Below, one piece after another: positions 24,511 through 57,440 of a DNA stretch of 64,000 nt. The translations under genes were made by a program, and so were the position numbers. Within the stretch, counting starts at the first letter, position 1; each line of letters opens with the position of its first letter. The notes below the pieces were generated by a model. It was not told the origin of the DNA. It did no database searches and saw only the letters and a program-made list of their open reading frames with translations. Source of the stretch: Bradyrhizobium sp. cir1 (GTDB lineage: Bacteria > Pseudomonadota > Alphaproteobacteria > Rhizobiales > Xanthobacteraceae); NCBI RefSeq assembly GCF_014198245.1, contig NZ_JACIHE010000030.1:1-64000 (forward strand). The letters are read 5' to 3'.

Positions 24511-24561
24511 TAGGATCTGCCGCTCGTAACGTAAGGCTTGAATGTTTGGAAAGAGGAATCG

Positions 24562-25347: not shown

Positions 25348-25374
25348 GAAAAATTGGGAGGGCCGGCACGTAGA

Positions 25375-26030: not shown

Positions 26031-27082
26031 GTGCTTCGGCGGAAGCCGGCTCACCGGCGTCTCAGAAGCGGGCCGCACGAGCGGCTCGTCGTGTCCTATG
26101 GCGCAATGTTAGCGCAACACGATCGCCTCCTATACGGGCCTGCTGTTCATGTTCGCACAGGCCGCGGCCCTGACGCTCACCGATTGGACGCAACGTTCAT
26201 CGGCGCGTTCCTAACCGATCTCGACGTAAAGCGCGGCGCCAACGCGAAGACGCGTAACCGGCGCCTGACCGCGATCCGATCCTCCTTGAGGTTCGTGTTC
26301 TTTGAGTAGCCGGCACACAGTGCCCTGATCCAGCGCGTGCTCGCCATACCGAGCAAGCGCCACGATAGGCGACAGGTGCAATTCCTGACGCGGCCCGAGA
26401 TCTAGGTGGTTCTCGCCGCGCCCGACCCGACGACGTGGCTTGGCCGCCTCAATTACATCTTGCTACTGGTCGCGGACGGGCTTACGCCTCTCAGAGCTGA
26501 TTGGCCTTGACCGGAGTGCCGTCCACCTCCGGTGCGATGCGTCGGTAAAGGGCAAAAAGCAGCGGACCACTCCGCTGACCACACTCGCTACGTGTCACGC
26601 TCCAGGCGTGCCTCAAGGAACCATTGCGGGAGGAAGCAACAGCGTTGTTCCTAAACGTGCACGGGGCCGGCTCAGTGCCGACAGCATCCATCCCCGTTGG
26701 TAAAGTATGTTCGTATCACTCACGAGAGTTGCCCGTCTTTGAAGGCCAAGAGCGTGTCACCGCACGTGCTGAGGCACAGCGCTGCGATGGAACTGCAGCA
26801 GGCCGGCCTCCACCTCCGAGACGGCCGAGCGCGGGTGGGACGGATCGGGATCACCCTTGCTGGGGCCGGCGATCTGCGCCATACCAGCGCGGGGGCAATT
26901 CCGGGATTTCCATCGTTCGCGCGTGGCTCGGTCATGAATCCGTCGAGCCGGCGCAGACGAATCTGCACGCCCACCTCGCCGTTAAGGAAGCTGCCCTGGT
27001 GAAGCTCAAACCGTACGAGCGCGGCAAGCGAACCCGCTTCCAACAGAACGATCGCCTGCTCGCCGTTCTGGAGGCGCTCTAA
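26031..27082 (+). pseudogene. Tyrosine recombinase / phage-type integrase, frameshifted
   Basis: Readable pieces: an N-terminal SAM-like domain (AQHDRLLYG..., FIGAFLTDLDVKRGANAKTR, RRLTAIRSSLRFVFFE), a catalytic-domain start (GLRLSELIGLDRSAVHLRCD, KGKKQRTTPLT), then SPHVLRHSAAMELQQAG carrying the HxxR box, and AWLGHESVEPAQTNLHAHLA near the position of the nucleophile Tyr, which reads Asn here. Pieces sit in different frames with in-frame stops. The family is the integrase trio type common on rhizobial islands. Inactive. Confidence 0.78.
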
Positions 27083-27204
27083 ACGACCAGTCTGTGTCGA
27101 ATGGAATGGGGCTGCCCTGTACGCGATGGACGGTCACCACCGTGACAATGGCGCGCCATACTGGACCCATTCGGCATAGTTTGGCTGGCGGCCAAAAACG
27201 CCAA

Positions 27205-27310
27205 AGCTCAATGACATATCCGCAAGCGTTGTTGGCGGACGTCTTGGCCCGCATCGCCAGCACCCCGCAAGCTCGGCTCAATTAGCTGCTGCCTTGGGAA
27301 TGGAAGAACA
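27205..27310 (+). mobile_element. IS66-family TnpC C-terminal remnant, opposite orientation
   Basis: The plus strand gives YPQALLADVLARIASTPQAR then LN, stop, LLPWEWK, the TnpC tail with one in-frame stop. Together with 25753-25895 it brackets the integrase remnant with facing IS66 ends. Confidence 0.7.
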
Positions 27311-27391
27311 GTCCTGTTCAGTCTGCGGCTTGGTGGGCCACCGCCCTGCGCGATCATCCCGCGGCGCTCACCAGACGGTTACGGCAGTTCT

Positions 27392-28798
27392 CTATGTTGA
27401 CGCATGCCACTCGATCACTTTGTCCATCGCTCGAATCGAGATCGCTGTGCCTTGCAAGAGCGGGCGACCCGCGAACATAGGCGGGCTTCCATCAAGTTGA
27501 TGTCCGCCTGAGACTCCATTCATCTGCGAGACTGGGATGATAACGATTTCAGGATGTTGGATCGTCAGCTCCTTAAGAGCGAGTCCAACCGGTGATCCGT
27601 CATCAATGGTCATTGGCAGGTCTTTGCCCCAGAGAAGGATATCAAACTCTCCGCTCTCTCCTAGTACCCGCATGCAACTGTTCAGGCCTTCGGTATCGAA
27701 GGCACTCTGGGCGCTTAGATCAAGAGGATTGAAGCTGTTTGCAAATCTCGGAAGGATGTCGCGGAGTCGTTTGCGCAATGGCTCGGAGAACCTAGCAAGC
27801 TTCATGCCTCGTGCCGACAATATCAAGTCCGCCATGATATTTCCCATTCCACCTGAAAAGCTCACGAAGGCGATGCGATTACCCCGCGGTCTGCGGATCG
27901 CATTGAAGGCCACAACGGTTTCTATCAGGTCCTCGGTAGAATCGACCGTGATCACACCTAGTTCTTTCAGAAACCGGATGTCCCATTCATAGCAATTGGA
28001 AGCCTGCGTCGCTGTATGTCGGCTGATGCCCATTCGAACTTCGGGATGCGCACCGACGCGCAACATGATTATCGGCTTCCGTTGCTCGCGCGCCCGCGCG
28101 CAGGCAGCAGCGAAGAGTTCAACGTTCTTGATCCCTTCGGAATAACTGACAATAACTTCTGTTTGTGGATCGGCCGCGAGAAAATGGATTATCTCTGCGC
28201 TTGTTACGTTGATCTCGTTGCCGGTGGTCACGACTTTGCTGATGCCTACGCCCCTTCCAATCAGCGGATGTATCATCGCAACCATCTGCCCGCTTTGGAA
28301 GACGCCACTGACCCCTCCGGCAATGGTCCTTGGTATCCTGTTTTCCCCAACGGCGATGATCGGCCGATGCAGATTCATGACGCCGAAGGTATTGGGCCCC
28401 ACAACGATTGTTGTCGCCGATTCGTTTGCCCAGCGGAGAATTTGCTGCTGCCTTGCGTGGCCTTCCAGAGAATCGAGTTCGGAAAAACCGCTTGAGATGA
28501 TCTGTGCTACGCCCACCGCCTTTCGCTTACACTCCTCCAAAATGGGCAAAATGCTTTCGGCTCGAACGCATAACACGGCCAAATCGACATGGAACGGAAC
28601 GTCTAATATGCACTTGTAACAGTTCACGTCATCGACCTTGCTGTAGTTGGAATTAACCGCAGCGACGTTTCCGTCGTATCCAGACGATACAATGTTGTTA
28701 AGGATATTCTTCGCAAGGCTCGGTTTCGGAGATGCGCCGACCACGGCAACCCCGCGCGGCTCGAAGAGGGGGCGAAAATTCAGTTCGTTGCTGGTCAT
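27392..28798 (-). CDS. CoA-binding / NDP-forming acyl-CoA synthetase-like protein lacking the ATP-grasp domain
   Basis: The 468-residue product has an N-terminal CoA-binding Rossmann domain (LFEPRGVAVVGASPKPSLAK), then two flavodoxin-like succinyl-CoA-ligase domains (VVGPNTFGVMNLHRP, GGVSGVFQSGQMVAMIHPLI, VSYSEGIKN, RIAFVSFSGGMGNIMADLIL). Full NDP-forming acetate-CoA ligases (about 700 residues) add an ATP-grasp domain, missing here, so it is either an alpha-type subunit or a partial paralog. ATG 28798 matches where relatives begin; an upstream in-frame start at 28897 would add 33 unconserved residues. It is co-directional with the AMP-forming ligase upstream (30297-31949), with a 1.5-kb gap. 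Confidence 0.8.
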   Translation of the reverse strand: MTSNELNFRPLFEPRGVAVVGASPKPSLAKNILNNIVSSGYDGNVAAVNSNYSKVDDVNCYKCILDVPFHVDLAVLCVRAESILPILEECKRKAVGVAQIISSGFSELDSLEGHARQQQILRWANESATTIVVGPNTFGVMNLHRPIIAVGENRIPRTIAGGVSGVFQSGQMVAMIHPLIGRGVGISKVVTTGNEINVTSAEIIHFLAADPQTEVIVSYSEGIKNVELFAAACARAREQRKPIIMLRVGAHPEVRMGISRHTATQASNCYEWDIRFLKELGVITVDSTEDLIETVVAFNAIRRPRGNRIAFVSFSGGMGNIMADLILSARGMKLARFSEPLRKRLRDILPRFANSFNPLDLSAQSAFDTEGLNSCMRVLGESGEFDILLWGKDLPMTIDDGSPVGLALKELTIQHPEIVIIPVSQMNGVSGGHQLDGSPPMFAGRPLLQGTAISIRAMDKVIEWHAST

Positions 28799-30084
28799 CT
28801 CCACTTTGCTCCAATCAGGCGATAAGAAGATGTGAAATTGACTGGTTACATATTTCTTGTTGCTCTCGTCCTTCGTCTCGCCAAGGTTGGAGGGCAAGGA
28901 CGCGCACGCTCTCCGATGCCGTGGGGAGGCGAGAGCAGCGATCAGCCCTCAGATCCTCGGACATGAGTAGCGTTGTGCGTGTCAGTGCGGCTAGCTCGTC
29001 GAGGAGTTAATTGTCGAGGCCGCGCGCGACATTGACGGTCGTCACCCTCATGTGTCTCTCCATTAGACAGAACGTGCGCTCACTGGTTCTTCCTCGCCCA
29101 ACTCGTTGGCGGACAAACGTTTGAAGGGGAGTAAGTCGCGCGTTGTGAGCGTCTGAACGCATTCGCCCCTCTCTTCAATGGTGCCGCTTCCTAATAGCAA
29201 CGCCCGTGCCAACGGCGTTAAGCTCACCAACCTTGTGATTTGCTTTCAAAGCACCGTTTTCGTGCCGCAAGCGGCGGTTTGGTGTTTCTAATCCGACAGA
29301 CCCGTACCGTTGTCATCGACCAGACAAGAACCGGTGGACGGTCGTGCGTGAAAGCCATAGCGCCCGACGATGCTGGCGAAGCCGAGTCGAATGTGGGCAT
29401 GCTGTGATGAAAGAGGGCCTCGTTGCCCTTGTTTCGACCCTCAAACGCCTGTTGGAATGACTTGGGCGGGCTAGTGGTGACGGGGCTCGGAGAAAGTGTA
29501 CCGGTCGGAGAGTTGTCGCGTGTTTGGTGGGAGCGCCCTGCGTAGGCGATCTCTTGACGTCTAGAGATCGTACGGCGTCCCTCGAGAGAAAAAGAAAATC
29601 CGAGACCGAGGAAGAGGCAATCATATCGTTTTCCGGCGACGCGCTGTTGCCATTCGACTTAGCCCTGGGGGACGTTCAGGGCAGCAAGTGTTTGTATCGA
29701 TATCTCCGGTCGCTGAGGACAGCTGTACCTCTATCGCCTTTGACTGCACCAGAAAATTTGCGTTCGTGACCGCTGGTGAAGAACGCGGGAGGACTCCCGG
29801 CCTCAGGCCTTGGTCAAATCTCTGATCTCGGCCAGCTCCTACAATAGCAATCTCGGTAGATGCAATTCCCCTTCCCGCCCTGCTTACAAGGGCCAGGAAG
29901 TCAGATCGGCATCTACTCTCAAGCCAGCTTTGCTGACCAATGGACAAGTCTAGCGTGCCGACGCTCCCCAACGCTTCGATTACGATCAAAAGAGCGCCAG
30001 AAGCTCATAGTGTCGACTTCATGAGCGCCCGCAATTGTGCTCGGGAGAGATCCGCGGAGGCGTACGAATCCGAAGGCGGAGTAA
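28799..30084. other. Gap between two CoA-ligase-type genes, with small decayed frames
   Basis: About 1.3 kb. On the minus strand 28860-29052 reads MRVTTVNVARGLDN, stop, LLDELAALTRTTLLMSEDLR, a small protein with an in-frame stop that I cannot name. The rest (29100-30084) has overlapping short frames only. Confidence 0.35.
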
Positions 30085-30235
30085 GAACTAACCTGAACTC
30101 GCACTTTTGCATTCTGAGTTGGTCGTCCTTAGGACTATGATGCTTAACGACAGGCCGCCAACCCTCGCGTTGACTGCGACTGAAATCGGCGTCGATCACC
30201 TCGCCAATGGTAAACCAAAAAGGCAAGATGCAAAA
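30085..30235 (+). mobile_element. IS4-family remnant
   Basis: This segment aligns with 15535-15690 of the IS4 element: shared blocks include TTTTGCATTCTGAGTT against TTTTGCATCCTGAGTT, CGCCAACCCTCG, and GACTGCGACTGAAATCGGCG against GACTGCGGCTGAAATCGGCG, then AAACCAAAA. It is a degenerate internal fragment of a second copy. Confidence 0.75.
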
Positions 30236-30296
30236 TGCTCTAGCTCTCTCTGACTTGCTTCGCGCGCAAGCAAGAATTGGAACCGGAAAAAAGGCT

Positions 30297-31949
30297 TCAG
30301 CGCCAGCGCTTCTGCTCAGTATCGTAGGCGCCGGCAAATGGATCAGCCACTGCCATCAACTCGCGTTTGAGCACCTTGTTGCTTGCAGTGGTTCTGGGGA
30401 GTGCCGCGATAAAGGCGATGTATCGCGGCACTTTGAACACGGCAAGACGAGCACGAGCATGTTCAAGAATGCGCTCGACGGGGATATCACCTGGTGTGAA
30501 GCCTTCTTCCAGCTCCAGGTAGACCTTAACTTCCTCTCCGCGCTTGGCGTCGGGAACGGGCACAGCGGCCACATCTGCGATCTCAGGAATCTCGCGGATG
30601 ATGTCCTCGACCTCGCGAGCAGCAATATTCTCGCTTGAGCGTCGGATCATATCTTTGATGCGTCCCACAAGCCAATAGAAGCCTAGCTCGTTGCGCCGCA
30701 GTAAGTCCCCTGTCTTGAACCATTCTCCTTCGAACGAGGTCGCATTCGCCTCTGGCCTATTCCAATAGCCCTTAAAGATTCCACGACCGCTCACCCACAG
30801 CTCGCCGACTTCGCCGACCGACGCGGGTGTGCCGTCATCATTCATCAGCCGCAGCTTCCGAAATGGGGCTCGAATGCCAACCGATCCGGAGTTGGCTAAC
30901 TCGTCAAGGTCGTTCGGCATCTGTGTCCCAAACCCGATTTCCGTCATGCCGTAAGCATCCTGGGTCCGCACTCGAAACCGTTTCCGGAATTTGTTCACCG
31001 TCTCAGGACTCCAGCCCCAATTCAGGGTCTGCTTCAGGCATGTTGCCCCGTCGTCGCCCGCAGCTTCGGCCCTGCGCGCTACAAGCTCGGGAAACACGCA
31101 CCAATCGATGCAATGCTCTTTGACCCAGCCGAGGAAGCGCGTCGAACTGAGTGACGGAGCTAGGTAGAATGTGCCGCCCTGTCGATAGGACTTCAGAAGA
31201 TATCCTTGCGGATCGCCGTAGAAAAACGGCAGAACAGACAGATACCTCTGGTACGCTCGGCCGTCCCCGCACGCCCCCTGATACGAACTCACTCCCCAAT
31301 AGTCATGTGTCAACATGCAACCCTTCGGAAAACCGCTTGTGCCCGAGGTATACTGAATGTTCAACAGGTCGTCGGGGAGGATATCCACCTGGACTGAAGA
31401 GTCGTCGACTCCCTTGAGCAGCTTATCCAGGGCAATGGCTCCCGGCGAAGGCTGGCCAACGAGGATTACTCGGTCTTTGGCGAGGTCTCGCGGCCAAGGT
31501 TCGAGTCTCAGGAACACCGGCCATGCGGACTCGTCGATGACGGCGAACTCGGCCTGCGTATCGCTGAGAACATATTCGATCTCCCTCGGGGTGTAGCGCA
31601 TGTTGATCGGGACCATCACCGCACCGAGCTTGGCAATCGCAAACCAGAGGATGGGGAAATCGATGCGATTGGGTAACATCACTCCAATGCGATCGCGCTT
31701 TCGTACGCCCAATGCGTGCAACGCATGGGCGTATTTATTCGACAATCCGTTCATCTCGGAGTAGGTCGCGCGCTCGCCGCGCTCAAAGACCTCTATCGCG
31801 GTCCTCGAGCCGTGCATTGTCGCCCGCATCGAAACCAGTTGTCCGATTGTGATGGTCTCATATTCCGATTCCAAGGTAGCGATCTTGTGCAATCGATCTG
31901 CGATGCGCTCAAGCAAGATATCTTGTGATAAGCCTTTTGTGTCCGTCAT
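30297..31949 (-). CDS. AMP-forming acyl-CoA synthetase (ANL superfamily)
   Basis: Activates a carboxylic acid with ATP to the adenylate and transfers it to CoA. The 550-residue product shows the P-loop-like A3 motif YTSGTSGFPKGCML, the A5 motif DAYGMTEIGFG, GEWFKTGDLLRR (A7), GRIKDMIRRSSENIAAREVE (A8), and the adenylation lysine near the C-terminus in TTASNKVLKREL. The order and length are normal. The motif set resembles the crotonobetaine/carnitine-type and long-chain ligases. Possible partner of the acyl-CoA dehydrogenase and BKACE genes; the acid is unknown. Confidence 0.9.
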   Translation of the reverse strand: MTDTKGLSQDILLERIADRLHKIATLESEYETITIGQLVSMRATMHGSRTAIEVFERGERATYSEMNGLSNKYAHALHALGVRKRDRIGVMLPNRIDFPILWFAIAKLGAVMVPINMRYTPREIEYVLSDTQAEFAVIDESAWPVFLRLEPWPRDLAKDRVILVGQPSPGAIALDKLLKGVDDSSVQVDILPDDLLNIQYTSGTSGFPKGCMLTHDYWGVSSYQGACGDGRAYQRYLSVLPFFYGDPQGYLLKSYRQGGTFYLAPSLSSTRFLGWVKEHCIDWCVFPELVARRAEAAGDDGATCLKQTLNWGWSPETVNKFRKRFRVRTQDAYGMTEIGFGTQMPNDLDELANSGSVGIRAPFRKLRLMNDDGTPASVGEVGELWVSGRGIFKGYWNRPEANATSFEGEWFKTGDLLRRNELGFYWLVGRIKDMIRRSSENIAAREVEDIIREIPEIADVAAVPVPDAKRGEEVKVYLELEEGFTPGDIPVERILEHARARLAVFKVPRYIAFIAALPRTTASNKVLKRELMAVADPFAGAYDTEQKRWR

Positions 31950-33788: not shown

Positions 33789-35108
33789 ATGTCCCGGGAC
33801 GCTATCAACTCACGCACGATGGAGGCTCTCGACGTACTTGAATCAAACGTCCGCTCCTACTCACGTTCATTTCCAGCGATTTTCAACCGAGCGCGCGGCT
33901 CGATTATGTTGACGGAAAATGGGAGGAAAGTCATTGACTTCTTGTCGGGTGCCGGAGCGCTAAACTACGGGCACAACAATCACGCGATTAAAGCTGCTAT
34001 TACTGAATATTTGGCTTCCGATGCCGTGATACATGGGCTTGACATGGCCACGCCTGCCAAGCTCGAATTTATGGAGACGTTCAGGTCTGTCATACTTCAA
34101 GAGCGAAGTATGCAGTACAAATTCCAATTCACTGGACCAACCGGAGCGAATGCCATCGAAGCAGCGCTAAAGCTCTCACGAAAAATTACGGGACGTCAAA
34201 ACATTGTCTCGTTTACTAACGGGTATCACGGGATGAGCTTAGGAGCACTTGCTGGGAGTGGTAATCGGTTTTATCGCGCAGCCAGCGGCGTGTCTTTGTC
34301 CGGCGCAACATTTGTGCCCTATGATGGGTATCTTGGACCAACTCTTGATACGGCCGACTATCTTCGAAAGGTGCTGATGGACGAAAGCAGTGGCATCGAT
34401 CGTCCTGCTGCCATTCTCGTTGAAACAGTGCAGGGCGAAGGTGGCATAAACGTCGCAGGCAGAAAATGGTTGCGATCAATTCAAGCAATCGCAAAAGATG
34501 TTGATGCTCTTTTCGTGGTCGATGACATACAGATGGGCTGCGGCCGCACAGGTGAGTTCTTTAGCTTCGAGTTCGCCGGTTTGTCGCCGGACATTATTGT
34601 GTTGTCGAAGTCGCTAAGCGGGTACGGTCTTCCGTTAGCAATGCTGCTGATCAAAGACGGGTTTGATGCATGGCGGCCAGGGGAACACATTGGGACGTTC
34701 AGAGGAAACAACCTTGCGCTGGTCGCCGGAACCGCAGCTATAAACCTTTATTGGCGCAGCGGATCGTTCTCAGACGAAATTCGGCGCATGGGAGAATTGG
34801 TCCGGGGCCGGCTCGAGACCATTGCATCCAAGCATGAGAACCGCTTTGCGGTTCGGGGGCGCGGAATGGCATTTGGTTTTGATTGCCATCTTGCTGAAAT
34901 CGCTGAAGCAACCGCACGCAAGGCTTTTGATAAGGGATTAATGATTGAGCGATGCGGACCGGCCGATCAGGTCGTAAAAATGTTGCCTGCACTCACCATC
35001 GACACTGACACTTTGAACCGCGGCCTTGACTTATTCGAAGAAGCGTTGGCCGAAGCACTGGCGGAGTGTTCATCTGTTCGAGACCGCAGTCCTGGGGAGG
35101 CGGCCTAA
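33789..35108 (+). CDS. Class III aminotransferase, EctB-like (diaminobutyrate--2-oxoglutarate type)
   Basis: A PLP enzyme of 439 residues. EctB normally converts aspartate semialdehyde plus an amino donor to 2,4-diaminobutyrate. Seen: YGHNNHAIKAAI, FTGPTGANAIEAALKLSRK (PLP phosphate loop), TNGYHGMSLGALAGSG, VETVQGEGGINVAG, VVDDIQMGCGRTGEFFSFE (PLP Asp) and IIVLSKSLSGYGLPLAMLLI with the Schiff-base lysine, then GTFRGNNLALVAG. This is the EctB subgroup pattern. GAGGAGACAAC precedes the ATG. No ectA or ectC is present, so ectoine is unlikely; diaminobutyrate or a related diamino acid may feed another product. Confidence 0.85.
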   Translation: MSRDAINSRTMEALDVLESNVRSYSRSFPAIFNRARGSIMLTENGRKVIDFLSGAGALNYGHNNHAIKAAITEYLASDAVIHGLDMATPAKLEFMETFRSVILQERSMQYKFQFTGPTGANAIEAALKLSRKITGRQNIVSFTNGYHGMSLGALAGSGNRFYRAASGVSLSGATFVPYDGYLGPTLDTADYLRKVLMDESSGIDRPAAILVETVQGEGGINVAGRKWLRSIQAIAKDVDALFVVDDIQMGCGRTGEFFSFEFAGLSPDIIVLSKSLSGYGLPLAMLLIKDGFDAWRPGEHIGTFRGNNLALVAGTAAINLYWRSGSFSDEIRRMGELVRGRLETIASKHENRFAVRGRGMAFGFDCHLAEIAEATARKAFDKGLMIERCGPADQVVKMLPALTIDTDTLNRGLDLFEEALAEALAECSSVRDRSPGEAA

Positions 35109-36135: not shown

Positions 36136-36867
36136 ATGAAAAGCCTAATTAATCCGTTGCACGTCTCACGCTATCTGCGAACATACGATGAAGATGCGGC
36201 GAAGAAAGGCATTAAGATCTCAATAGGGTTCGATTTTCATAAGTATGTATCAATTACGCGAGCAATTCCAACCAAAGCACGGACATATCCGATGTTCCGG
36301 CCAGATCGCTCGCCGCTCAAATTCGGGGACGGATATTGGATCGTAGGAGTGGACAAAAAAAACGAGGTGGCAGTTGTAGAGGCTGCTCGACTGTACGATC
36401 TTTCGCACAGCTGCTTTGCAGAGCATCTTGAATCGCTAAGGGCGTTTTACGCTGATCCGACCGCCCATGCACATCCTGGAGATCACTGCACATGCACTGC
36501 GCCAAGCGCCAAAGAAATACGAGGGAAAGTAGCCTATCATGGCGATCTTTGGGTACGAAGAGACTTTCGGGGGCGGGGTATGCCCAAGATCATGTCAGGA
36601 GTAGCGAGGGGCGTTTCTTTCGCGATGTGGGCGCCTGAATTCGTATGTGGACTCGTATCAAGCCAGCTCGTGGCCAAGGGGGTTGTCGCGCAATATGGAT
36701 ACGCGCACCAGGAACCCGGCGGATCGATATTGAAGCTCGTAGAGGAGGATATCTTGGACGACGATTGGATTCACTGGCTAACGGGCGAAGAGTTGAGGAG
36801 CCTTGTTAGTGGCAATGACAGAGATGATATGCTGGTACCTCCATTTGCTGGGGAAACCGAAGGGTAG
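36136..36867 (+). CDS. Uncharacterised protein with GNAT-like C-terminal region
   Basis: A 243-residue soluble protein with no signal peptide. Residues about 60-110 form a plausible beta-sheet segment (FGDGYWIVGVDKKNEVAVVE). Around residues 130-155 it reads GKVAYHGDLWVRRDFRGRGM, resembling the acetyl-CoA pyrophosphate loop (R-x-x-G-x-G/A) of GNAT acetyltransferases. There is also a Cys/His-rich stretch HPGDHCTCTAPS near residue 115. I do not recognise a named family. It sits between two aminotransferases and before a KamA-like gene, so N-acylation of an amino acid is a reasonable guess only. Confidence 0.6.
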   Translation: MKSLINPLHVSRYLRTYDEDAAKKGIKISIGFDFHKYVSITRAIPTKARTYPMFRPDRSPLKFGDGYWIVGVDKKNEVAVVEAARLYDLSHSCFAEHLESLRAFYADPTAHAHPGDHCTCTAPSAKEIRGKVAYHGDLWVRRDFRGRGMPKIMSGVARGVSFAMWAPEFVCGLVSSQLVAKGVVAQYGYAHQEPGGSILKLVEEDILDDDWIHWLTGEELRSLVSGNDRDDMLVPPFAGETEG

Positions 36868-37678: not shown

Positions 37679-38866
37679 TCAGCTCCACGTGTTTAGAATC
37701 TCAGTTAAGCGCCGCAAGCCCTCGCTCAATTGCGCGAGATCTATACCGTACGAGAGCCGAATGCCGGCGGGGTCGCCAAACACTGTGCCCGAAGCTGCTG
37801 AAACTCTTGCCTTCATCAGTAATGTGTTCGCGACATCATCAGCGTCAATTTCGCGGCCCTTGGCATTAGCCTTACGTCGCAATTCGGTAAGATCCAGATA
37901 AAAGTAGATTCCACCTTCCGCGGGAGGCCTGGGGACCAATGCGAGGTTCGAAAGAATTGACAATCCGAGTGCTCGCGCCGTTGCAACTTGGCGCTCCAAC
38001 TGCATTTGAAAGTAAAGATCTCCCCGTTCTAGATAGTAGAGCAGTGCGTGCTGTGCAATGATATTTACGTTAGTCGTCATAATGCTTTGCAGGGCTTTAA
38101 CTGCGCTAATGACGGTCTTAGGACCAGCGAGATATCCAATTCGCCAACCACTTAGCGCCAACGAACTGGAAAACGAGTTGACGATCAAAGTACGATCGCG
38201 CGCTTGCGGCGCCACAGATACAATTGGTTGGTGAGCATGCGGGGCATAGGTAAAGGCCTTGTAGGATTCATCGAAGATAATCCAGAGATCCCGTTCGATG
38301 GCGAGTTGAGCAATATCGGCAAGGGTGTCACGGTCATATACCGCACCGGTTGGATTATTCGGCGTATTAACAACGATCGCCTTAGTCTTTGATGTAATGG
38401 CCGTCGCGAGATCCGTAAGCTGCGGTACATAGTTATTGTGGCGTGTCTCTAACAAAATCGGCCGACCGCCAGCTAGAGCAACTTGAGTTGGAAAAGTAGT
38501 CCAATGCGGAGCTGGAATCAGCACTTCGTCGCCCGGATTCAAAATACTCATGGCCACGTTGAGGAGCGCGTGTCTGGCGCCATTCGTCACCGCGATCTCG
38601 TCTTCGGACCAGGGTTGAGCTGTTTCGGCGGAAACCTTGCGAGCAAGTGCGTGGCGCAACTTCCTCACCCCAATCGTGCCCGTGTAGCGGTTGAGGTTAT
38701 GGTCTATGGCGGCGATAGCTCCGTCGCGCACGACGGGGCTTAGATCGCTACAGATTTCTTCGACGCTCAAGTCGATTATTTCCTCGCCCGTCGCGCGCAG
38801 CTGATCGGCTTTGCTCACAGCAGGAGCATCCAAGGAGTTAAAGAGGGTTGTCCGTTGCGCTAACAT
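37679..38866 (-). CDS. Class I/II PLP-dependent aminotransferase
   Basis: A 395-residue fold-type I aminotransferase of the aspartate-aminotransferase type. Seen: YTGTIGVRKLRHALARK, TNGARHALLNVAMSILNPGD, PAPHWTTFPTQVALAGG, VVNTPNNPTGAVYDRDTL (substrate/PLP Asn), IIFDESYKAFTYAPH (PLP Asp), NSFSSSLALSGWRIGYLAGP and IRLSYGIDL (substrate Arg). The usual Schiff-base lysine in the S-SK segment reads FSSSLALSG here, i.e. Ser in place of Lys, which is striking. ATG 38866 is chosen because AAAGGAGAG lies five bases upstream. One copy of the 27-bp element lies 280 bp upstream. Confidence 0.85.
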   Translation of the reverse strand: MLAQRTTLFNSLDAPAVSKADQLRATGEEIIDLSVEEICSDLSPVVRDGAIAAIDHNLNRYTGTIGVRKLRHALARKVSAETAQPWSEDEIAVTNGARHALLNVAMSILNPGDEVLIPAPHWTTFPTQVALAGGRPILLETRHNNYVPQLTDLATAITSKTKAIVVNTPNNPTGAVYDRDTLADIAQLAIERDLWIIFDESYKAFTYAPHAHQPIVSVAPQARDRTLIVNSFSSSLALSGWRIGYLAGPKTVISAVKALQSIMTTNVNIIAQHALLYYLERGDLYFQMQLERQVATARALGLSILSNLALVPRPPAEGGIYFYLDLTELRRKANAKGREIDADDVANTLLMKARVSAASGTVFGDPAGIRLSYGIDLAQLSEGLRRLTEILNTWS

Positions 38867-39147
38867 GAGTGCTCTCCTTTCGTTGAAAGTGCTCTCTGCA
38901 GGAGTCGCTGAAAAGTGAGAACAGGGGGTGGACCGCCGTTCTGCCCGCATCGTGGCCAGAGACATCATCGTAGGCCTTCATAGGGAAGCCCCGAGGGGGA
39001 GGCCTGATCGGCGGCGTCTGTAGGCGACGGTTTAGACATCGATCGAAACCGTCGGCGATGACTGCTGTAGCCGAAGCTGATGTTGCATGCCGAGTTCCTC
39101 GTGACTTTTGCATAACTTGTCAGCTGTTGCCACGCATTTCTCATCTG

Positions 39148-40347: not shown

Positions 40348-40363
40348 TGTCCGATCAACAACA
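40348..40363 (+). promoter_or_regulatory. NifA upstream activator sequence
   Basis: TGTCCGATCAACAACA is an exact TGT-N10-ACA site. It lies 99 bp upstream of the -24 box at 40462, the normal working distance for NifA, and reads toward the KamA-like gene. Confidence 0.75.
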
Positions 40364-40461
40364 TCCATACTCGAGGCTGGCAAACTGCACGACGACGGTC
40401 CCTCGACCGGCTGGGACGCTCAAATTCCCGTGCATTTCCCGTATGGAGCGCCACACCTTCT

Positions 40462-40477
40462 TGGCACGCAGATTGCT
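40462..40477 (+). promoter_or_regulatory. Sigma-54 (-24/-12) promoter, perfect consensus
   Basis: TGGCACGCAGATTGCT matches TGGCACG-N4-TTGCW at every defined position. It predicts a start of transcription near 40488 and a leader of about 45 bases with AAAGGAGC ahead of ATG 40533. Combined with the upstream TGT-N10-ACA it is a classical NifA-RpoN promoter. Confidence 0.88.
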
Positions 40478-40532
40478 GATTGGGTTGAGAACTACATCCC
40501 GCACGATCTCACGCCTGCCCAAAGGAGCTCAG

Positions 40533-41711
40533 ATGGAATCCTCTCCATTGACCCAAATCGAGGATACGGACTGTGCGCCGGGCCCATTGGCAGGCTCTGG
40601 CGATCGCCTGCCACAATCATGGCCTAAACACGATCCGCCGCTTCGCAGTGCGCTCATGAAATTCATAGATGGCGGCGCTCGCATGATCACAGAGAGCGAT
40701 GTGCAAGCTCATGGCATCACACGTTATCATATCACAAAGTTCTACCGTGAGCACATCGCCAATAGCGGTTACTACGACCAGCTAAAGTACATTGTTGAGC
40801 CCTCAATCGAAGAGTTCGACAGTCCGGGGAGGTTGGATACGAGCGGCGAGCACGACAACACTGTTGTACCAGGGCTTCAGCACAAGTACGCCCAGACCGG
40901 CCTGCTGTTGGTAACTAACCGTTGCGCTTCTTATTGTCGTTTTTGCTTCCGCAAACGACTGGTGGGCAAAGAATCCGATGAAATCGTACCAGACGTCGCG
41001 AAGGCGGCCCAATATATTATCCGCCATCCTGAGATGACGAATGTGCTGTTGTCAGGAGGTGATCCGTTCGTTCTTAGCACAGCAAAGCTAGATGAAATCC
41101 TTACACACCTGCTCCCGATCCCGCATTTGGAGACCATTCGGATCGGCACAAAATTCTTCGCCTTCGAACCAAAACGATTCCGAGATCCTGCTCTACCTGC
41201 TTTCTTCCAGCGAATCCGCGATGCAGGCAAGACAGCCGTGCTTGTCACACATTTCGATCACATCGGTGAGATATCGGTTGAGGCTGAGCAGGTTATCCAT
41301 ACTTTGCGCACACAGGGGGTGCAGTTCCTCAATCAATCTGTCCTTCTCTCAAAGGTAAATGATAATCCCGAGATCTTGGCACGGACTTTTGCTAAGTGTC
41401 ACCAAATAGGTGTCCGTCCGTACTATCTCTTCCAAGCAAGGCCCGTGAAGGGCGCGTCTCATTTTCAGATTCCGCTTCATCGCGGATTAGAGGTTGCGCG
41501 CGGCGTCAATCAGCGTCTTGCAGGCATCCAAAAGACATTCAAATACATCATGTCGCACTACACCGGAAAGATCGAGATCCTCGATATTGCAGACGATGGC
41601 CGCATTTATATGAGATACCATCAGAACAAGAGCGCGGACAAGATTGGAAAGATCTTTTCGAGGCCATATACCGAGACCGCTTGCTGGTTGGACGATCTAC
41701 CGGAACGATGA
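40533..41711 (+). CDS. KamA-family radical SAM aminomutase-like protein
   Basis: A radical SAM enzyme with PLP, related to lysine 2,3-aminomutase, 392 residues. The [4Fe-4S] cysteines are C131-x3-C135-x2-C138 (NRCASYCRFCFRKRLVG). Also seen are VLLSGGDPFVLSTAKLDEIL, RIGTKFFAFEPKRF and VTHFDHIGEISVEA. Positions that bind the substrate epsilon-amine in lysine aminomutase (Asp293, Asp330) read Arg (QARPVKGASHFQIP) and Ser (IMSHYTGKIEI); the PLP lysine is kept in YTGK. So the substrate is probably not lysine and may carry an acidic side chain. ATG 40533 has AAAGGAGC upstream; an in-frame start at 40347 would lie inside the promoter. Confidence 0.87.
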   Translation: MESSPLTQIEDTDCAPGPLAGSGDRLPQSWPKHDPPLRSALMKFIDGGARMITESDVQAHGITRYHITKFYREHIANSGYYDQLKYIVEPSIEEFDSPGRLDTSGEHDNTVVPGLQHKYAQTGLLLVTNRCASYCRFCFRKRLVGKESDEIVPDVAKAAQYIIRHPEMTNVLLSGGDPFVLSTAKLDEILTHLLPIPHLETIRIGTKFFAFEPKRFRDPALPAFFQRIRDAGKTAVLVTHFDHIGEISVEAEQVIHTLRTQGVQFLNQSVLLSKVNDNPEILARTFAKCHQIGVRPYYLFQARPVKGASHFQIPLHRGLEVARGVNQRLAGIQKTFKYIMSHYTGKIEILDIADDGRIYMRYHQNKSADKIGKIFSRPYTETACWLDDLPER

Positions 41712-44533: not shown

Positions 44534-45460
44534 CTACCGAGGCTGTAGATATCGCTTCTCGGATGCGGCCAGTTCGTCATATCTCATGAGATCGAATACC
44601 TCAGTGAGCGGTGCGATATGAGATTCAATGCTCGCAACGCTCTCTTGGGCTGCGATACTATCGCAGACACGCCGCATTGCAGCTGCTGCAGCTCGCATGG
44701 AATGATTGGCCCAAACGACCGTGGAGATGCGCGCATCGCGATAGGCGGAGACTGGCGTTCGGTAGTATGTCGTCGGAACGAGCACGACAGGAAGCCGGTT
44801 CGCCCACTCGGTGGCGAACGAAAGCACCTCGTCCGCGCTACTCTTTCGCGAGTGAATCAAGATAGCATCCGCCCCCGCGTCGGCATAAGCGTGGGCACGA
44901 ACGATAGCTTCGTTCAGTCCGTGCCCGGCGATCAGCGCTTCGATCCTGGCTACGAGAATAAGAGTTTCGCCGACTACATCCTTTACAGCCCGCAGACGAC
45001 CGGAGAACTCATCGATATCGGCGAGCGCATGCCGCTCTCCAATGAGCGAGTTCAGCTTCGGAAAGCAGCTGTCCTCAAGCGAGATGCCCGCCCCGCCAGC
45101 CTGACGAAGTTTGCGTGCGAGAAGGCGCGCATTGTTGAAATTGCCAAAGCCCCCATCCCCGTCAACGAGCACCGGTAGCTCAGTCGAATCCACGATGCGT
45201 TCGACGCTCTCGACGAGCTGGCTCCATGAAGCTTCGTTGGCGTCGCGAAAGCCCAGCGAGCTGGCAATCGACAAACCGGACGCCCAGAGCCCCTTGAATC
45301 CCGAGCGCTCGGCGATTCTGGCCGAAAGGCCATCATGCGCCTCCATCAGAAACGAGAGCTCACCATTCGAACAGACCTCGGCGCGAAGCCTTTCGACAGT
45401 CGATGGCCGCGTGTATTGGTGAGCTGCGGTGGGCCGAACGGCTTCTGGTTGACACTGCAT
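44534..45460 (-). CDS. Phosphoenolpyruvate mutase (isocitrate lyase superfamily)
   Basis: PEP mutase converts PEP to phosphonopyruvate, the entry step of nearly all phosphonate biosynthesis. The 308-residue product shows LSFLMEAHDGLSARIAERSG, GLWASGLSIASSLGFRDANE, VLVDGDGGFGNF (metal Asp pair) and the diagnostic loop EDSCFPKLNS against the canonical EDKxFPKxNS. Glu, Asp, the second Lys, Asn and Ser are kept; the first Lys is Ser. The retained Asn argues for mutase rather than phosphonopyruvate hydrolase. I chose ATG 45460; an in-frame TTG at 45496 is possible. A copy of the 27-bp element lies 70 bp upstream. The partner decarboxylase is 6.3 kb away (51786-52928). Confidence 0.85.
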   Translation of the reverse strand: MQCQPEAVRPTAAHQYTRPSTVERLRAEVCSNGELSFLMEAHDGLSARIAERSGFKGLWASGLSIASSLGFRDANEASWSQLVESVERIVDSTELPVLVDGDGGFGNFNNARLLARKLRQAGGAGISLEDSCFPKLNSLIGERHALADIDEFSGRLRAVKDVVGETLILVARIEALIAGHGLNEAIVRAHAYADAGADAILIHSRKSSADEVLSFATEWANRLPVVLVPTTYYRTPVSAYRDARISTVVWANHSMRAAAAAMRRVCDSIAAQESVASIESHIAPLTEVFDLMRYDELAASEKRYLQPR

Positions 45461-45529
45461 GCACAAATCCTGGAAGCCGAGCTTCGTTTGGCGCAAACGT
45501 CGCTGTTCTTATCCTTTTGGATTGACATC

Positions 45530-48231: not shown

Positions 48232-49725
48232 TTAGGACAAAGGGTCGCTTTCGGGCTCCCCAATCAACGGCTTGGGAGGACGGCGAGATATGGCCGATGC
48301 TCGGCTGTTGATTGTCACCCACTCTTTGTCGAGACGGCGCTGCACCGAGGAAGGAATGCGCATGGCTTCGCGGTACTTCGCGACCGTGCGGCGGGCAATA
48401 TCAATCCCCGAAGCGCGCAACCGTTCCACGATCGTATCGTCGGAGAGGACCGCTGCGGGCTCCTCCGAATCGATCAGCTGCTTGATGTGGTGACGCACGG
48501 CTTCGGCCGAATGCGCCTCGCCGCCATCAGCCGAGGCGATTGACGCGGTGAAGAAATATTTCAACTCGAATGTACCGCGATTTGTCGCCATGTATTTGTT
48601 GGCGGTGACGCGTGAGACCGTGGATTCATGCATCTGAATGGCCTCGGCGACGTCCTTTAGATTCAGCGGGTTCAAATGCGCGACTCCATGGGTGAAGAAT
48701 CCGTCCTGCTGGCGCACGATCTCGGTTGCAACTTTCAGGATAGTGCGCGCCCGCTGGTCGAGCGCGCGCACCAGCCACGACGCGTTCTGCAGTGCATCAG
48801 TGAAATATGACTTGTCGCCGTCCTTACCGATCTTCTTCGACAGCTCGGAATAGTAGGTCTGGTTGACCAGCACGCGCGGCAAGGTGTCGCTGTTGAGCTC
48901 GACATGCCAGCCGCCGTCCGGACCCGGGCGGACATAGACGTCGGGCACCATGGTCTGGAGCCGCGCCGAGCCGAACTTCATGCCGGGCTTGGGATTGAGC
49001 CGGCGGATCTCGCCGATCATGTCGGCGATGTCCTCATCGTCGACGCCGCAGAGCTTGCGCAGGCTCGCAATGTCGCGCTTGGCGAGGAGATCGAGATGCT
49101 CGACGAGCGCCTGCATCGCGGGATCGTAGCGGTCGAGCTCGCGGAGCTGGATCGCTAAGCATTCGCTCAAATTGCGCGCGCAGACGCCGGGCGGATCGAA
49201 TTTTTGCAGCACGGCAAGAACATTCTCGACGTCCTCTTGCGTTGCCCCAAGCCGCTCGGTCGCCCCGCCGAGATCGGGCGGCAGATAGCCGGCTTCATCG
49301 ACGAGGTCGATCAAATACTGCCCGATCATCCGCTGCGTGGGTGAGGTGACGGCGACCGAGAGCTGCTCGGCGAGAGAGCCTAACAATGTTGTCTCGGCCG
49401 CGACAAAAGCTTCAAGATTGTAGTCTTCGTCACCCGAGGAGGCGCCGCCCCATTCGGTGTGGGCAGTCGGCGCCGCGTCCTGGTCGTTGCGCGCGGCCGC
49501 CGCGGCCGGCTGTTCGGCGCTGACCTCACCGCCCCCGGTCAGGGATTCGACGCCAGCTGCCTCGCCACTGGCGCGCTCGAGCAGAGGATTGCGCTCGAGC
49601 TCCTCCTCCACGAACGCTGTGAGATCGAGATTGGACAATTGCAGCAGTTTGATCGCCTGCATCAACTGCGGCGACATGACCAACGATTGCGAATGCCGGT
49701 ACTCTAATCTCTGCGCGAGCGACAT
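48232..49725 (-). CDS. rpoN: RNA polymerase sigma-54 factor
   Basis: Sigma-54 directs polymerase to -24/-12 promoters and needs an ATP-driven activator such as NifA. The 497-residue product has the Gln-rich region I (YRHSQSLVMSPQLMQAIKLL), an acidic linker (about residues 45-100), the core-binding region, the HTH (HESTVSRVTANKYMATNRGT) and the RpoN box ARRTVAKYREAMRIP near the C-terminus. All domains are present. By eye the gene is richer in G+C than its flanks, which would fit a copy of a chromosomal gene (an inference). Three or four sigma-54-like promoters lie in this same window. Confidence 0.95.
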   Translation of the reverse strand: MSLAQRLEYRHSQSLVMSPQLMQAIKLLQLSNLDLTAFVEEELERNPLLERASGEAAGVESLTGGGEVSAEQPAAAAARNDQDAAPTAHTEWGGASSGDEDYNLEAFVAAETTLLGSLAEQLSVAVTSPTQRMIGQYLIDLVDEAGYLPPDLGGATERLGATQEDVENVLAVLQKFDPPGVCARNLSECLAIQLRELDRYDPAMQALVEHLDLLAKRDIASLRKLCGVDDEDIADMIGEIRRLNPKPGMKFGSARLQTMVPDVYVRPGPDGGWHVELNSDTLPRVLVNQTYYSELSKKIGKDGDKSYFTDALQNASWLVRALDQRARTILKVATEIVRQQDGFFTHGVAHLNPLNLKDVAEAIQMHESTVSRVTANKYMATNRGTFELKYFFTASIASADGGEAHSAEAVRHHIKQLIDSEEPAAVLSDDTIVERLRASGIDIARRTVAKYREAMRIPSSVQRRLDKEWVTINSRASAISRRPPKPLIGEPESDPLS

Positions 49726-54647: not shown

Positions 54648-54992
54648 GCGTTGGCGTCACTTCCTCTACGAGAGCGAAGAGATCGCATATGGCCTTGTCT
54701 GCATCCAGGTGTTCCTACGTTCTGCACAAATTCGGCAATTCATTCCGCCGTGGACAGGCAAGCGCCGGCCACTCAATGACATTTTGCTTCTTCGAGCCGG
54801 ATGTCGAGTGTCCTAGTCATTGTCGCTCGGGTCCACGTCATTTCCGCCGTGCTCAGGCTCGATTCCGCGTACCGGCTACAGAACGGGCCCTTGATCGCTA
54901 TACCACGACGGCCGGGATACCCATGGCCTGCTAGGCGGCGGCACGCTTGCTCGTCGAGACGCGGATTCGGCGAGTGATATTTGGGGCATGGT

Positions 54993-57440
54993 ATGGATAG
55001 CAAAAGGAAACAGTCTCCGGGGGTATTGTCACATCTGAGGGTGATCGAGATCGGCAGCTCGGACGCAAGCAGCTATTGCGCTCGATTGTTCGCAGATTTC
55101 GGGGCTGCCGTTCAGAAGATCGAGCCGCCGGGGGGAGATCTAATACGCCGTACTGCGCCACTCACTCCCAAGGGCCAAAGTGCGTGGTTCGCATTTCTCA
55201 ATTTCAACAAATCGAGCACTATCCTCGATCCTGCGGACGCGGGCGCAATCGCCCGACTAACTGCACTGGTCGAGGGTTGCGATGTCTTGATCGATGGTCG
55301 GGATGTTGATTCGGCGAATTGCCCGCCCATTGATGTCGCTGCGATCCGTGACCGACACTCCGGCTTGATCCACGTTGCGGCGAGCTGGTTCGGGCGTGGA
55401 GGACCCTATACGGACTTTGCAGCGACAGATTCGACCGTCCGTGCACTTGCTGGCCTCATCAAGCTGGTTGGGCCGGCAGAGGGGCCACCTTCACACGCTC
55501 CAGATTTCCAGACGGGTATTCTTGCCGGCCTGTGGGCGTTTATTGCCGCGGCTTCTTCGGTGATTGCTCGAATGCGGGGCGAGCAGGGCCGGAGGTGGTC
55601 ACTCAGTATCTTCGAATCGACCCTCGCTCTCAGCGAATACCTCATCTTTGAGGCATCGGCGCAAGGCGACGTCGTACGCCGTATTGGCATCAATCGCTTC
55701 TGGCCGGTCTTTCCGGCGGGTATTTACGAAACAAAAAGGGGATGGCTTGGCGTTACAGCCTTCACACCCGCTCAGTGGAGAGCGTTCTGCGATATGCTCG
55801 ACCTTTCCGAACTTGGAGACAATCCGGATCTGCTCCTTGGCAAGGATCGTCTGCAAGACATTGAACAGATCGAACAACAATTCGCACCGAGACTGAAAAC
55901 GCGTACATCGCAGCAGTGGGTTACCGAGGGGCGTAAACGTAAGATTCCTATCGTGCCAGTGCCCAAAATGTCTGAGCTTCTCTACGACGCTGAGATGAAA
56001 GAGCGCGGCGCGATCGTGCCTGTTGTCCTTGACGGAGAGCAGGGCCTGACCGCCGGCTCGATGCAACGCCTGACGTTAACTCCGCCGCGCCGAGGTGGTA
56101 AGGTTCCGGCTGCGGGCGGACAGCAAGCTATCGCGCACCTCCGGAGGCGTCTGCCTTCACCTTCAGCGGCCAGCGTTGATGCCGGACGGCCGCCCTTGGA
56201 TGGGGTTCGCGTGATGGACTTCTCGATGGGGTGGTCAGGACCGTTGTGTACGCGCATCCTGGCGGATCTTGGTGCGGACGTCATCAAAATCGAGGCCATC
56301 CAACATCCCGATTGGTGGCGCGGCGTCGACCGACGCCCAGCTTTCATCGAAGATAAAATGTACGAGCGGGCGCCATGCTTCTGCATCATGAACCGCAACA
56401 AACGCGGCATTACACTCGACCTCACGCGGCCACGAGGTCTCGCTCTTGTTAAGGAACTTGTGTCGAAAGCCGATATTGTCGTCGATAATTATTCAGTAGA
56501 TGTCCTGCCGAAGCTCGGACTAGGCTTTGATGTGCTCCGAGCGCTCAACCCTCGACTGGTTAAGCTGTCGCTGTCCGCGTTTGGCGTGGATAGTATTTAT
56601 CGCGATTGTCGGGCTTACGGCTCGACTCTCGAACAGGGCTCGGGCTTGCCGACTGTGGTCGGAAAGTCCGACATGCCGCCCGTGATGAGCCATATTGCCT
56701 TCGGAGATGCTATCGGCGGCTTGAACGGCTGCGCCGCAATTCTGATCGCGCTGATTTGGGCCCGTGATGCCGGGCAAGGACAGCTTATTGATCTTGCCCA
56801 GATCGAATGCATGCTGCCATTTGCGGCGCCATGGTTCACTGTCCACTCGATTGACCGTATGCCGCCGAAAAGGTACGGCAATCGGCATCCGCAGTTCGTG
56901 CCTCACGGCTGCTTTCGATGCGCGGGCGAGGATAACTGGCTTATAGTAGCCGCCACCGACAATGAGATGTGGCAGAGGCTTGCCATTCTTATTGGTCGAC
57001 CAGACTGGGCCATGAACGCATCGCTTAATTCTGCAGAAGCCCGCCGTAGCATTGAAGACGACATCGAGAACGCTATAGAAGCCTGGACGCGCGCCCGTGA
57101 TGCAGATCAGGCGATGTTCGAATTGCAGTCGGTAAGGGTTGCGTCCGGCGTAGCTCGGCATCCAATCGACCTGCTCCAGGATCCCCATCTAAGGTCGCGG
57201 GCATTTCTGCAACAAGTCGAGCGCCCCTTCATAGGCGCGCATCTACAGCCATCGATGCCGATCCGCGAAGGGGCAGGACCTTATACGATTCGTGCGGCAG
57301 CGCCGACATTGGGGCAGCACAACAGCGAGATCCTGACTGGGCTTCTCGAGCTCTCCGATAGCGATGTTGCTGAACTCGCGAGAGAAGGCATCATCGGGAC
57401 GACAATGCTTCGCGAGGGACGGAGTGTGTCTTCAGGATAA
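54993..57440 (+). CDS. Fused double-domain CaiB/BaiF (class III) CoA-transferase
   Basis: Class III CoA-transferases move CoA between acids through an Asp-bound anhydride. The 815-residue product holds two complete family domains: residues about 10-380 (HLRVIEIGSSDASSYCARLF, KIEPPGGDLIRR, PDFQTGILAGLWAF) and about 400-810 (GVRVMDFSMGWSGPLCTRIL, DVIKIEAIQHPDWWRG, NRNKRGITLDLTRPRG, FGDAIGGLNGCAAIL). Each has an Asp at the catalytic place (APD-FQTG, FGD-AIGG). Single-domain members are about 400 residues. ATG 54993 is preferred to TTG 54981. It is driven by the NifA/sigma-54 promoter and heads a plus-strand group ending with an MFS permease. Confidence 0.88.
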   Translation: MDSKRKQSPGVLSHLRVIEIGSSDASSYCARLFADFGAAVQKIEPPGGDLIRRTAPLTPKGQSAWFAFLNFNKSSTILDPADAGAIARLTALVEGCDVLIDGRDVDSANCPPIDVAAIRDRHSGLIHVAASWFGRGGPYTDFAATDSTVRALAGLIKLVGPAEGPPSHAPDFQTGILAGLWAFIAAASSVIARMRGEQGRRWSLSIFESTLALSEYLIFEASAQGDVVRRIGINRFWPVFPAGIYETKRGWLGVTAFTPAQWRAFCDMLDLSELGDNPDLLLGKDRLQDIEQIEQQFAPRLKTRTSQQWVTEGRKRKIPIVPVPKMSELLYDAEMKERGAIVPVVLDGEQGLTAGSMQRLTLTPPRRGGKVPAAGGQQAIAHLRRRLPSPSAASVDAGRPPLDGVRVMDFSMGWSGPLCTRILADLGADVIKIEAIQHPDWWRGVDRRPAFIEDKMYERAPCFCIMNRNKRGITLDLTRPRGLALVKELVSKADIVVDNYSVDVLPKLGLGFDVLRALNPRLVKLSLSAFGVDSIYRDCRAYGSTLEQGSGLPTVVGKSDMPPVMSHIAFGDAIGGLNGCAAILIALIWARDAGQGQLIDLAQIECMLPFAAPWFTVHSIDRMPPKRYGNRHPQFVPHGCFRCAGEDNWLIVAATDNEMWQRLAILIGRPDWAMNASLNSAEARRSIEDDIENAIEAWTRARDADQAMFELQSVRVASGVARHPIDLLQDPHLRSRAFLQQVERPFIGAHLQPSMPIREGAGPYTIRAAAPTLGQHNSEILTGLLELSDSDVAELAREGIIGTTMLREGRSVSSG

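Follow-up and report, generated by a model that had tools for sequence, protein, structure and literature searches.

A KamA-family aminomutase gene behind a predicted NifA–RpoN promoter in Bradyrhizobium sp. cir1 and its occurrence among legume symbionts

The stretch of DNA analyzed here, referred to in the following as the window, comprises 64,000 nucleotides from Bradyrhizobium sp. cir1. It contains an open frame on the plus strand (40533–41711) for a KamA-family radical SAM protein of 392 amino acids, in which C131, C135, C138, R303 and K346 are the residues of interest. On the same strand, the frame is preceded by a TGT-N10-ACA motif at 40348–40363, corresponding to a NifA upstream activator sequence (UAS), and by a −24/−12 sigma-54 promoter, TGGCACGCAGATTGCT, at 40462–40477. 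This box matched TGGCACG-N4-TTGCW, the −24/−12 consensus as printed in PMC3538637, at 12 of 12 scored positions with no mismatches. The GC doublet at −13/−12 of the box places the predicted transcription start at 40488, giving a predicted untranslated leader of 45 nt (40488–40532) that contains a ribosome site, AAAGGAG (40521–40527), ending 5 nt before the ATG at 40533. Relative to this start, which is inferred from the promoter, the UAS spans −140 to −125; such motifs usually lie ≈80–150 nt upstream. The initial annotation had described the motif at 40348, the 12/12 box at 40462 and a 45-nt leader with a good ribosome site before a radical SAM gene, and the sequence check agreed on all of these, with the coordinates confirmed and the frame intact. 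No further plus-strand gene was apparent directly 3′ of the aminomutase gene, which appears to be transcribed alone. An intergenic stretch of 1.5 kb separates it from a divergent neighbor encoding an aspartate-aminotransferase-like protein (37679–38968, minus strand).

Taken alone, the TGT-N10-ACA motif was within chance in the window, with 13 copies observed against 7.93 expected, and at least 13 in 9 of 100 shuffles. The zero-mismatch box occurred twice, at ≈29196–29211 on the minus strand and at 40462 on the plus strand, against a shuffle mean of 0.05, and the combination of a box of at least 11/12 with a TGT-N10-ACA starting 61–260 nt upstream was found three times, against none in each of 60 dinucleotide shuffles. 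When six Bradyrhizobium loci, including the window, were compared, the box and the ribosome site had been kept while the flanks had diverged, and an exact TGT-N10-ACA was present at the window's position in five of the six. In G230 this first copy was degraded, and a second, exact copy was found 19 nt further on, in register with second copies in G125 and G222.

The protein passed the KamA family model TIGR00238 barely, by 0.2 bits (199.4 against a cut-off of 199.2), and this model was matched by all 37 homologues; the Pfam Radical_SAM score was 31.8 against 29.5. The radical SAM CX3CX2C motif (C131, C135 and C138) was invariant in the 37 homologues. So was K346, which follows G345 and aligned with the PLP lysine in all 14 aligned rows; we take the PLP-binding lysine of structure 2a5h to be K337. 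An AlphaFold2 model (37 homologues; pLDDT 85.1, pTM 0.84) had as its nearest solved structure lysine 2,3-aminomutase, 2a5h, with a Z score of 31.3 over 316 residues, the next structure scoring 14.9. With this enzyme (KamA/AblA), the protein shares the fold, the CX3CX2C motif, an arginine at the position of R134 and the position of the PLP lysine. It differs in that the AblA stretch VVDAPGGGGK, which includes the Asp, reads YIMSHYTGK in the window protein, and in an identity of 27–28%. Judged from its sequence, the protein is probably an active 2,3-aminomutase dependent on PLP and SAM.

The main difference lies in the predicted side-chain pocket. R303 occupies the position of lysine 2,3-aminomutase D293, a residue that presumably binds the side-chain amino group of lysine, and it was invariant in 37 of 37 homologues, whereas the Asp was kept in the annotated AblA and BlsG controls and in RLV_1884 (14-row alignment; see below). 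Arg303 is basic, and glutamate 2,3-aminomutase presumably carries a lysine at this position. The replacement of Asp by an invariant Arg makes an acidic substrate likelier, and the balance tips slightly toward such a substrate, with glutamate the likeliest. Four specific assignments were tried and rejected: lysine 2,3-aminomutase AblA (TIGR03820; 179.1 against a cut-off of 525.4, passed by controls L190 and L193; Asp293 replaced by Arg303), EpmB, the EF-P beta-lysylation enzyme (TIGR03821; 177.9 against 369.3), arginine 2,3-aminomutase (TIGR04468; 166.1 against 600, passed by control L192) and the glutamate 2,3-aminomutase equivalog (TIGR04368; 178.5 against 650). The last score is far under its cut-off.

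An ordinary lysine 2,3-aminomutase, making beta-lysine as an osmolyte or for EF-P modification and only incidentally controlled by NifA, would account for the PGAP label "lysine 2,3-aminomutase" on most plasmid orthologues and for the fold match to 2a5h; moreover, R. leguminosarum has a different KamA protein in which the Asp is retained and which reaches 464 bits against the AblA model, near the cut-off of 525. Nevertheless, the window protein falls far under the AblA and EpmB cut-offs while the AblA controls pass, D293 is replaced by Arg in all 37 homologues, and neither AblB nor EpmA was noticed near the gene in the annotated plasmid loci, which were inspected unsystematically. We therefore consider a lysine enzyme distinctly unlikely. 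The enzyme is a new subfamily of the known KamA family. The KamA-type assignment made in the initial annotation was borne out by the family model, the fold and the 37 homologues, but does not extend to identity with lysine 2,3-aminomutase, by model score and by the side-chain-binding residue.

Upstream of the aminomutase gene, the window encodes an EctB-type diaminobutyrate–2-oxoglutarate transaminase (33789–35108, plus strand; 599.6 bits, cut-off 552.2). No other protein of this genome exceeds the cut-off of the EctB model, and the transaminase is likely to be a partner of the aminomutase. Of 43 other loci, 12 had an EctB homologue close to the aminomutase gene, in fragments in L147, L148 and L096. 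A GNAT-like protein (36136–36867, plus strand), for which there was no Pfam or NCBIfam match and which is named by our own reading, was found near the gene in 4 of the 43 (L145, L146, L148 and L096). Further downstream lies a phosphoenolpyruvate mutase (44534–45496, minus strand) that passes its model; its link to the aminomutase is weak. If Arg303 bound a phosphonate such as phosphonoalanine, supplied via this mutase, the gene would belong to a phosphonate pathway, and the phosphonopyruvate decarboxylase (51786) and phosphonoacetaldehyde dehydrogenase (50144) of the window pass their models as well. L148 likewise has a phosphoenolpyruvate mutase close to the gene, and L096 has one in pieces, but there was no such match in the other 41 of the 43 loci. 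With just 2 of 43 other loci having the mutase near the gene, we rejected the phosphonate link as shown, and a phosphonate substrate seems highly improbable.

Other parts of the window are recorded here in their own right. Between 44534 and 54111, the phosphoenolpyruvate mutase, phosphonopyruvate decarboxylase and phosphonoacetaldehyde dehydrogenase genes flank rpoN (48232–49725), forming a candidate phosphonate route in the symbiosis region. The regions 17351–31949 and 54981–63169 encode an acyl-CoA dehydrogenase, an HpcH/HpaI lyase, two BKACE proteins, a 3-hydroxyacyl-CoA dehydrogenase, a carnitine-CoA-ligase-like AMP ligase and a CoA transferase, a set that looks like beta-keto acid or carnitine breakdown. 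Two genes are candidate NifA targets: one for an acetate-CoA-ligase-alpha-like (acyl-CoA-synthetase-like) protein (27392–28897), behind the 12/12 box at 29211 on the minus strand with a TGT-N10-ACA, and one for a CoA-transferase-III protein (54981–57440), behind an 11/12 box at 54632 on the plus strand, also with a TGT-N10-ACA. Rfam searches of the window and of L156 gave no matches at gathering scores.

In other loci, the aminomutase gene was accompanied by genes for joining amino acids. An L-amino-acid-ligase domain (LAL_C2) was found in L071 and, fused to KamA, in the Bradyrhizobium protein L053, and a Pfam Condensation domain was fused to the gene in L059. ATP-grasp genes lay within 10–12 kb of the gene in 9 of 11 annotated plasmid loci, the exceptions being L165 and L169. 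Four loci (L061, L070, L073 and L142) had an operon of KamA, gamma-glutamyltranspeptidase, a 7TM protein and a D-Ala-D-Ala-ligase-like ATP-grasp protein. Single loci added an aspartate decarboxylase, an aspartate-semialdehyde dehydrogenase, a glutamate-5-kinase-like protein, an ectoine-synthase homologue and MFS/MATE carriers. The company of the gene thus consists of makers of unusual amino acids, enzymes that join them, and exporters. The genome of the window itself had no close relative of the L-amino-acid ligase, the best match having 30% identity. It does encode an EctC homologue, on contig C17 together with nodC (164.8 bits, cut-off 128), preceded by only a 10/12 box with a UAS ≈450 nt upstream. 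DoeA-like M24 proteins were found near the gene in L141, L167 and L059, with scores of 151–556 bits, under the cut-off of 613. EctB and the EctC homologue in the window's genome, and the DoeA-like M24 proteins near the gene in other loci, recall the ectoine pathway; however, ectoine needs no aminomutase, and the DoeA-like proteins remain under their model cut-off.

Two further gene groups were observed. In Mesorhizobium sp. LSJC280B00, the EctB gene close to the aminomutase gene is followed by one for a WelO5-like iron/2-oxoglutarate protein (L063:5717–6559); judging by its HxD motif, read by eye, a hydroxylase is likelier than a halogenase. On contig C43 of the window's genome (L201, G000:C43:3000–22900), genes for a DoeA-like M24 protein, an ABC transporter and an M20-like protein stand in a row at 9712–19399, with a content resembling the R. 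leguminosarum UPM791 region described below; the row is a possible uptake and cleavage set.

The genome of the window (G000, with the window on contig C30) carries nifH on C7 and nodC on C17. With the protein as query (E ≤ 1e-60), an orthologue was found in 44 of 265 Bradyrhizobium genomes, at 72–81% identity. All 44 carriers were positive for nifH, compared to 115 of 221 non-carriers (159 genomes with nifH in total), and 42 of the 44 were positive for nodC, compared to 93 of 221 non-carriers (135 in total); the two carriers in which a nodC match was absent, G218 and G245, are both drafts. Fisher tests, uncorrected for relatedness, gave p = 1.6e-11 for nifH and 4.6e-12 for nodC. In a scan of genome contigs, the matches listed included at least 18 loci at 69% identity or more and 62 others at 46% or less. 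Of the 18 listed, 17 were from Bradyrhizobium, Mesorhizobium, Microvirga, Rhizobium and Sinorhizobium, and one, at 69% identity, was from a metagenome bin of Pyrinomonadaceae, which is not a legume symbiont. Among the deeper homologues listed (38–46% identity), those of Cloacimonadota had purine genes as neighbors and those of Paenibacillus cobalamin genes, a gene context that had nothing in common with that in rhizobia. Among 72,556 plasmid records, there were 29 matches at 1e-60: one from Paenibacillus (38%) and 28 from rhizobia (60–80% identity; 65.7–77.3% among the matches listed), all of them Rhizobium, Sinorhizobium, Mesorhizobium or Bradyrhizobium, including R. tropici CIAT 899 pRtrCIAT899b and S. 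meliloti pHRC017. The symbiotic association proposed from the single locus was therefore supported both by the co-occurrence with nifH and nodC among the 265 Bradyrhizobium genomes and by the plasmid records.

For a comparison of promoters, 79 loci were reduced to 48 distinct loci by shared 12-mers; in five of the 48, the upstream DNA covered is shorter than 2 kb. Within 2 kb upstream, 24 of the 48 had a box scoring 11/12 or better, against 5.9% of random 2-kb stretches from the same loci, and 16 of the 48 had such a box together with TGT-N10-ACA, against 3.4%. With an upstream span of 700 nt, the box count was 15 of 48. In loci where a condensation-domain or ATP-grasp gene stands ahead of the aminomutase gene or is fused to it, the box lies in front of whichever gene comes first, as in L059, L060, L141, L164, L165, L166, L167, G155 (the same as L161) and L053/L158; in L053 it lies 1.77 kb upstream. 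The condensation-domain fusions of Mesorhizobium sp. L-8-3 and Microvirga sp. KLBC 81 were preceded by a box with a UAS (≈−90), and a box and UAS stood before the condensation-domain gene of Rhizobium sp. C104. In R. leguminosarum Norway, the box before the ATP-grasp gene was without a strict UAS, and in the group with the gamma-glutamyltranspeptidase operon a box was found upstream in L061, L142 and L070, with no strict TGT-N10-ACA. In all, the strict motif was absent from 8 of the 24 box-bearing loci, as might be expected if the promoter were sigma-54-dependent but activated by an enhancer-binding protein other than NifA. Against this, TGT-N10-ACA has a near-constant spacing in the six closest loci and recurs in the fused or operon copies (≈−90), and the gene is associated with nifH and nodC; we regard another activator as very unlikely. 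The proposed NifA–RpoN control gains support from the conserved box, accompanied by the UAS in 16 of 48 distinct loci, and from these sequence features the aminomutase gene is very probably under such control. Its expression in vivo would be expected to depend on NifA.

In the other half of the 48 loci, no box was found in the upstream DNA examined (up to 2 kb). In a phylogenetic tree, the deepest rhizobial branches bear the box, whereas an 18-row Bradyrhizobium clade (support 100/98) is without one in the upstream DNA covered, up to 2 kb. Because the deepest branches bear it, the simplest reading is that the box was lost in this clade. The clade has another conserved leader, CTCACCACA-N-TAGGTAGGT-W-TCGAT, of which each of nine gene-carrying genomes tested had a single copy; in the window's genome there were no copies, and a reversed control pattern also gave none. 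The conserved leader, CTCACCACACTAGGTAGGTATCGAT, stands in place of the sigma-54 promoter, for example at G072:C54:20055–20079. With half of the loci and one Bradyrhizobium clade lacking the box, the gene does not require NifA control, and the control predicted for the window is not universal.

A second KamA subfamily occurs in R. leguminosarum UPM791. Its RLV_1884 (pRlvC), presumably RLV_RS01150 by product, position and length, resembles the window protein in belonging to the KamA family, adjoining an ATP-grasp gene, lying behind a copy of the nifH-type promoter and being abundant in bacteroids. It differs in having 35% identity, in keeping the Asp and in being AblA-like, and represents another subfamily. 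RLV_1884, labeled lysine 2,3-aminomutase, was reported together with a diaminobutyrate transaminase and a D-Ala-D-Ala ligase among the top 50 proteins of UPM791 pea bacteroids, and none was detected in vegetative cells (PMC7950203). According to PMC10228743, strain UPM791 owes part of its symbiotic performance and of its competitiveness on pea to the diaminobutyrate transaminase (Dat); the paper reports no evident NifA site upstream of dat. We found that ≈200 bp of the nifH promoter region, including the box TGGCACGAATCTTGAG, is repeated before tlpA–ectB (dat) and before a dehydrogenase–ATP-grasp–KamA operon. The repeats on pRlvC are located at L187:6155–6460 (minus), L187:6860–7165 (plus) and L189:21022–21330 (minus). 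A second box-like sequence, TGGCACGAAACTTGAA, lies directly before ectB. Both TGGCACGAATCTTGAG and TGGCACGAAACTTGAA have GA at −13/−12, as in the local nifH promoter, and so would be missed by a standard consensus. The repeat may explain the nodule expression of Dat in UPM791.

Published nodule data from other symbionts bear on the same genes. In nodules of a P. phymatum nifA mutant, ectB (Bphy_7266) had a log2FC of −7.58, a GNAT gene −8.06, a D-Ala-D-Ala ligase −8.45 and MatE −8.21, and 2,4-diaminobutanoate was reduced (PMC8305402). The EctB of the window is 47% identical to that of Bphy_7266; the window's GNAT-like protein was dissimilar to Bphy_7268 by BLASTP, and the two GNAT genes are not equated. 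In M. loti R7A, msi260 (diaminobutyrate transaminase), pepM, aatA and asnB were poorly expressed in nifA2 mutant nodules; msi260 is placed by a table of the same paper among genes with a NifA promoter and by the section text among those without (PMC3538637). In B. diazoefficiens 113-2, the orthologues of bll8232 ("L-lysine 2,3-aminomutase"), bll8231 and bll8230 are among the genes differentially expressed in nodules (PMC8632152), and bll8229 is among bacteroid proteins (PMC6320959). The order of bll8232–bll8230 (aminomutase, gamma-glutamyltranspeptidase and an unnamed gene) is that of the operon in L061, L070, L073 and L142, and judging by order and names the genes are presumably orthologous; unlike the window, this operon group has no strict TGT-N10-ACA. 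These data (PMC8305402, PMC3538637, PMC7950203 and PMC8632152) are consistent with the reading proposed below. The initial annotation had not recognized such a nodule metabolite as described. KamA proteins were in fact already present in nodule data (RLV_1884, PMC7950203; bll8232, PMC8632152), but no product is assigned in the accounts given there, and in a partial coverage of the literature we found no paper giving this KamA subfamily a function.

The gene might also be a bystander, carried by mobile symbiosis regions and expressed without a function that matters in this strain. Consistent with this, M. loti mutants in the nifA2-dependent genes msi260, pepM, aatA and asnB nodulated with full effectiveness (PMC3538637). 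Yet the active site is conserved at 72–81% identity across the genus, the promoter has been retained, and the diaminobutyrate transaminase of UPM791 aids symbiotic performance and competitiveness on pea, as reported in PMC10228743. A functionless passenger is accordingly an unlikely explanation.

From the computed promoter and its conservation, the protein family, its residues and the gene company, we infer a substrate, a product and a role for that product as follows. Sigma-54 RNA polymerase activated by NifA would transcribe the aminomutase gene, chiefly in micro-oxic nitrogen-fixing bacteroids. The encoded KamA-family radical SAM, PLP-dependent 2,3-aminomutase, with Arg303 instead of Asp in the side-chain pocket, would act on an acidic amino acid, in the likeliest case glutamate, and transfer its amino group from the alpha to the beta carbon, giving in bacteroids the kind of beta-amino acid that the initial annotation supposed. 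ATP-grasp L-amino-acid ligases, in some strains with a condensation-domain protein, would then join the beta-amino acid to other unusual amino acids, for example 2,4-diaminobutyrate from the neighboring EctB, yielding a small peptide-like metabolite. We assign a probability of roughly 0.7 to the reading as a whole, namely that this is a NifA–RpoN-controlled symbiotic gene for an aminomutase of its own subfamily, whose beta-amino acid product would go into a peptide-like metabolite of nodules. That the product is built with diaminobutyrate or ligated into a peptide has about even odds; for the window's own strain, the ligation step is conjectural. The recurrence of the gene beside amino-acid-joining enzymes in unrelated legume symbionts points to an undescribed small molecule of nodules.

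More speculatively, such a molecule could serve as an opine-like currency of the nodule. Diaminobutyrate from EctB and the beta-amino acid from the aminomutase would be joined by an ATP-grasp ligase, and the resulting compound, resembling ectoine or a peptide, would in some strains be cyclised by an EctC homologue and exported by MFS/MATE carriers. Kin would take it up and cleave it via ABC transporters, DoeA-like M24 proteins and M20 hydrolases (as in UPM791 L187 and, in the window's own genome, L201). Being made only during nitrogen fixation, it would reward bacteria related to the fixing bacteroids. Rhizopines (mos/moc) are synthesized in bacteroids under NifA regulation and used by kin; the aminomutase locus, for which a compound and its use by kin are hypothetical, differs from them in its chemistry. 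As a whole, a NifA-switched pathway of synthesis, export, kin uptake and reward is doubtful.

Two KamA subfamilies, that of the window and that of RLV_1884, appear to have been placed independently behind NifA-type promoters beside ATP-grasp ligases, a pattern suggesting that nodules have a use for a beta-amino-acid compound. R. tropici CIAT 899 carries these genes, as does R. leguminosarum UPM791 for the second subfamily, so that both the compound and its role are directly testable. If the reading is true, the nodule expression of Dat in UPM791, so far unexplained, may find a regulatory basis, and the substrate pocket of the aminomutase would be new for the KamA family. The NifA regulon would then govern, beyond nitrogenase, a recurrent and horizontally shared biosynthetic module with a radical aminomutase.
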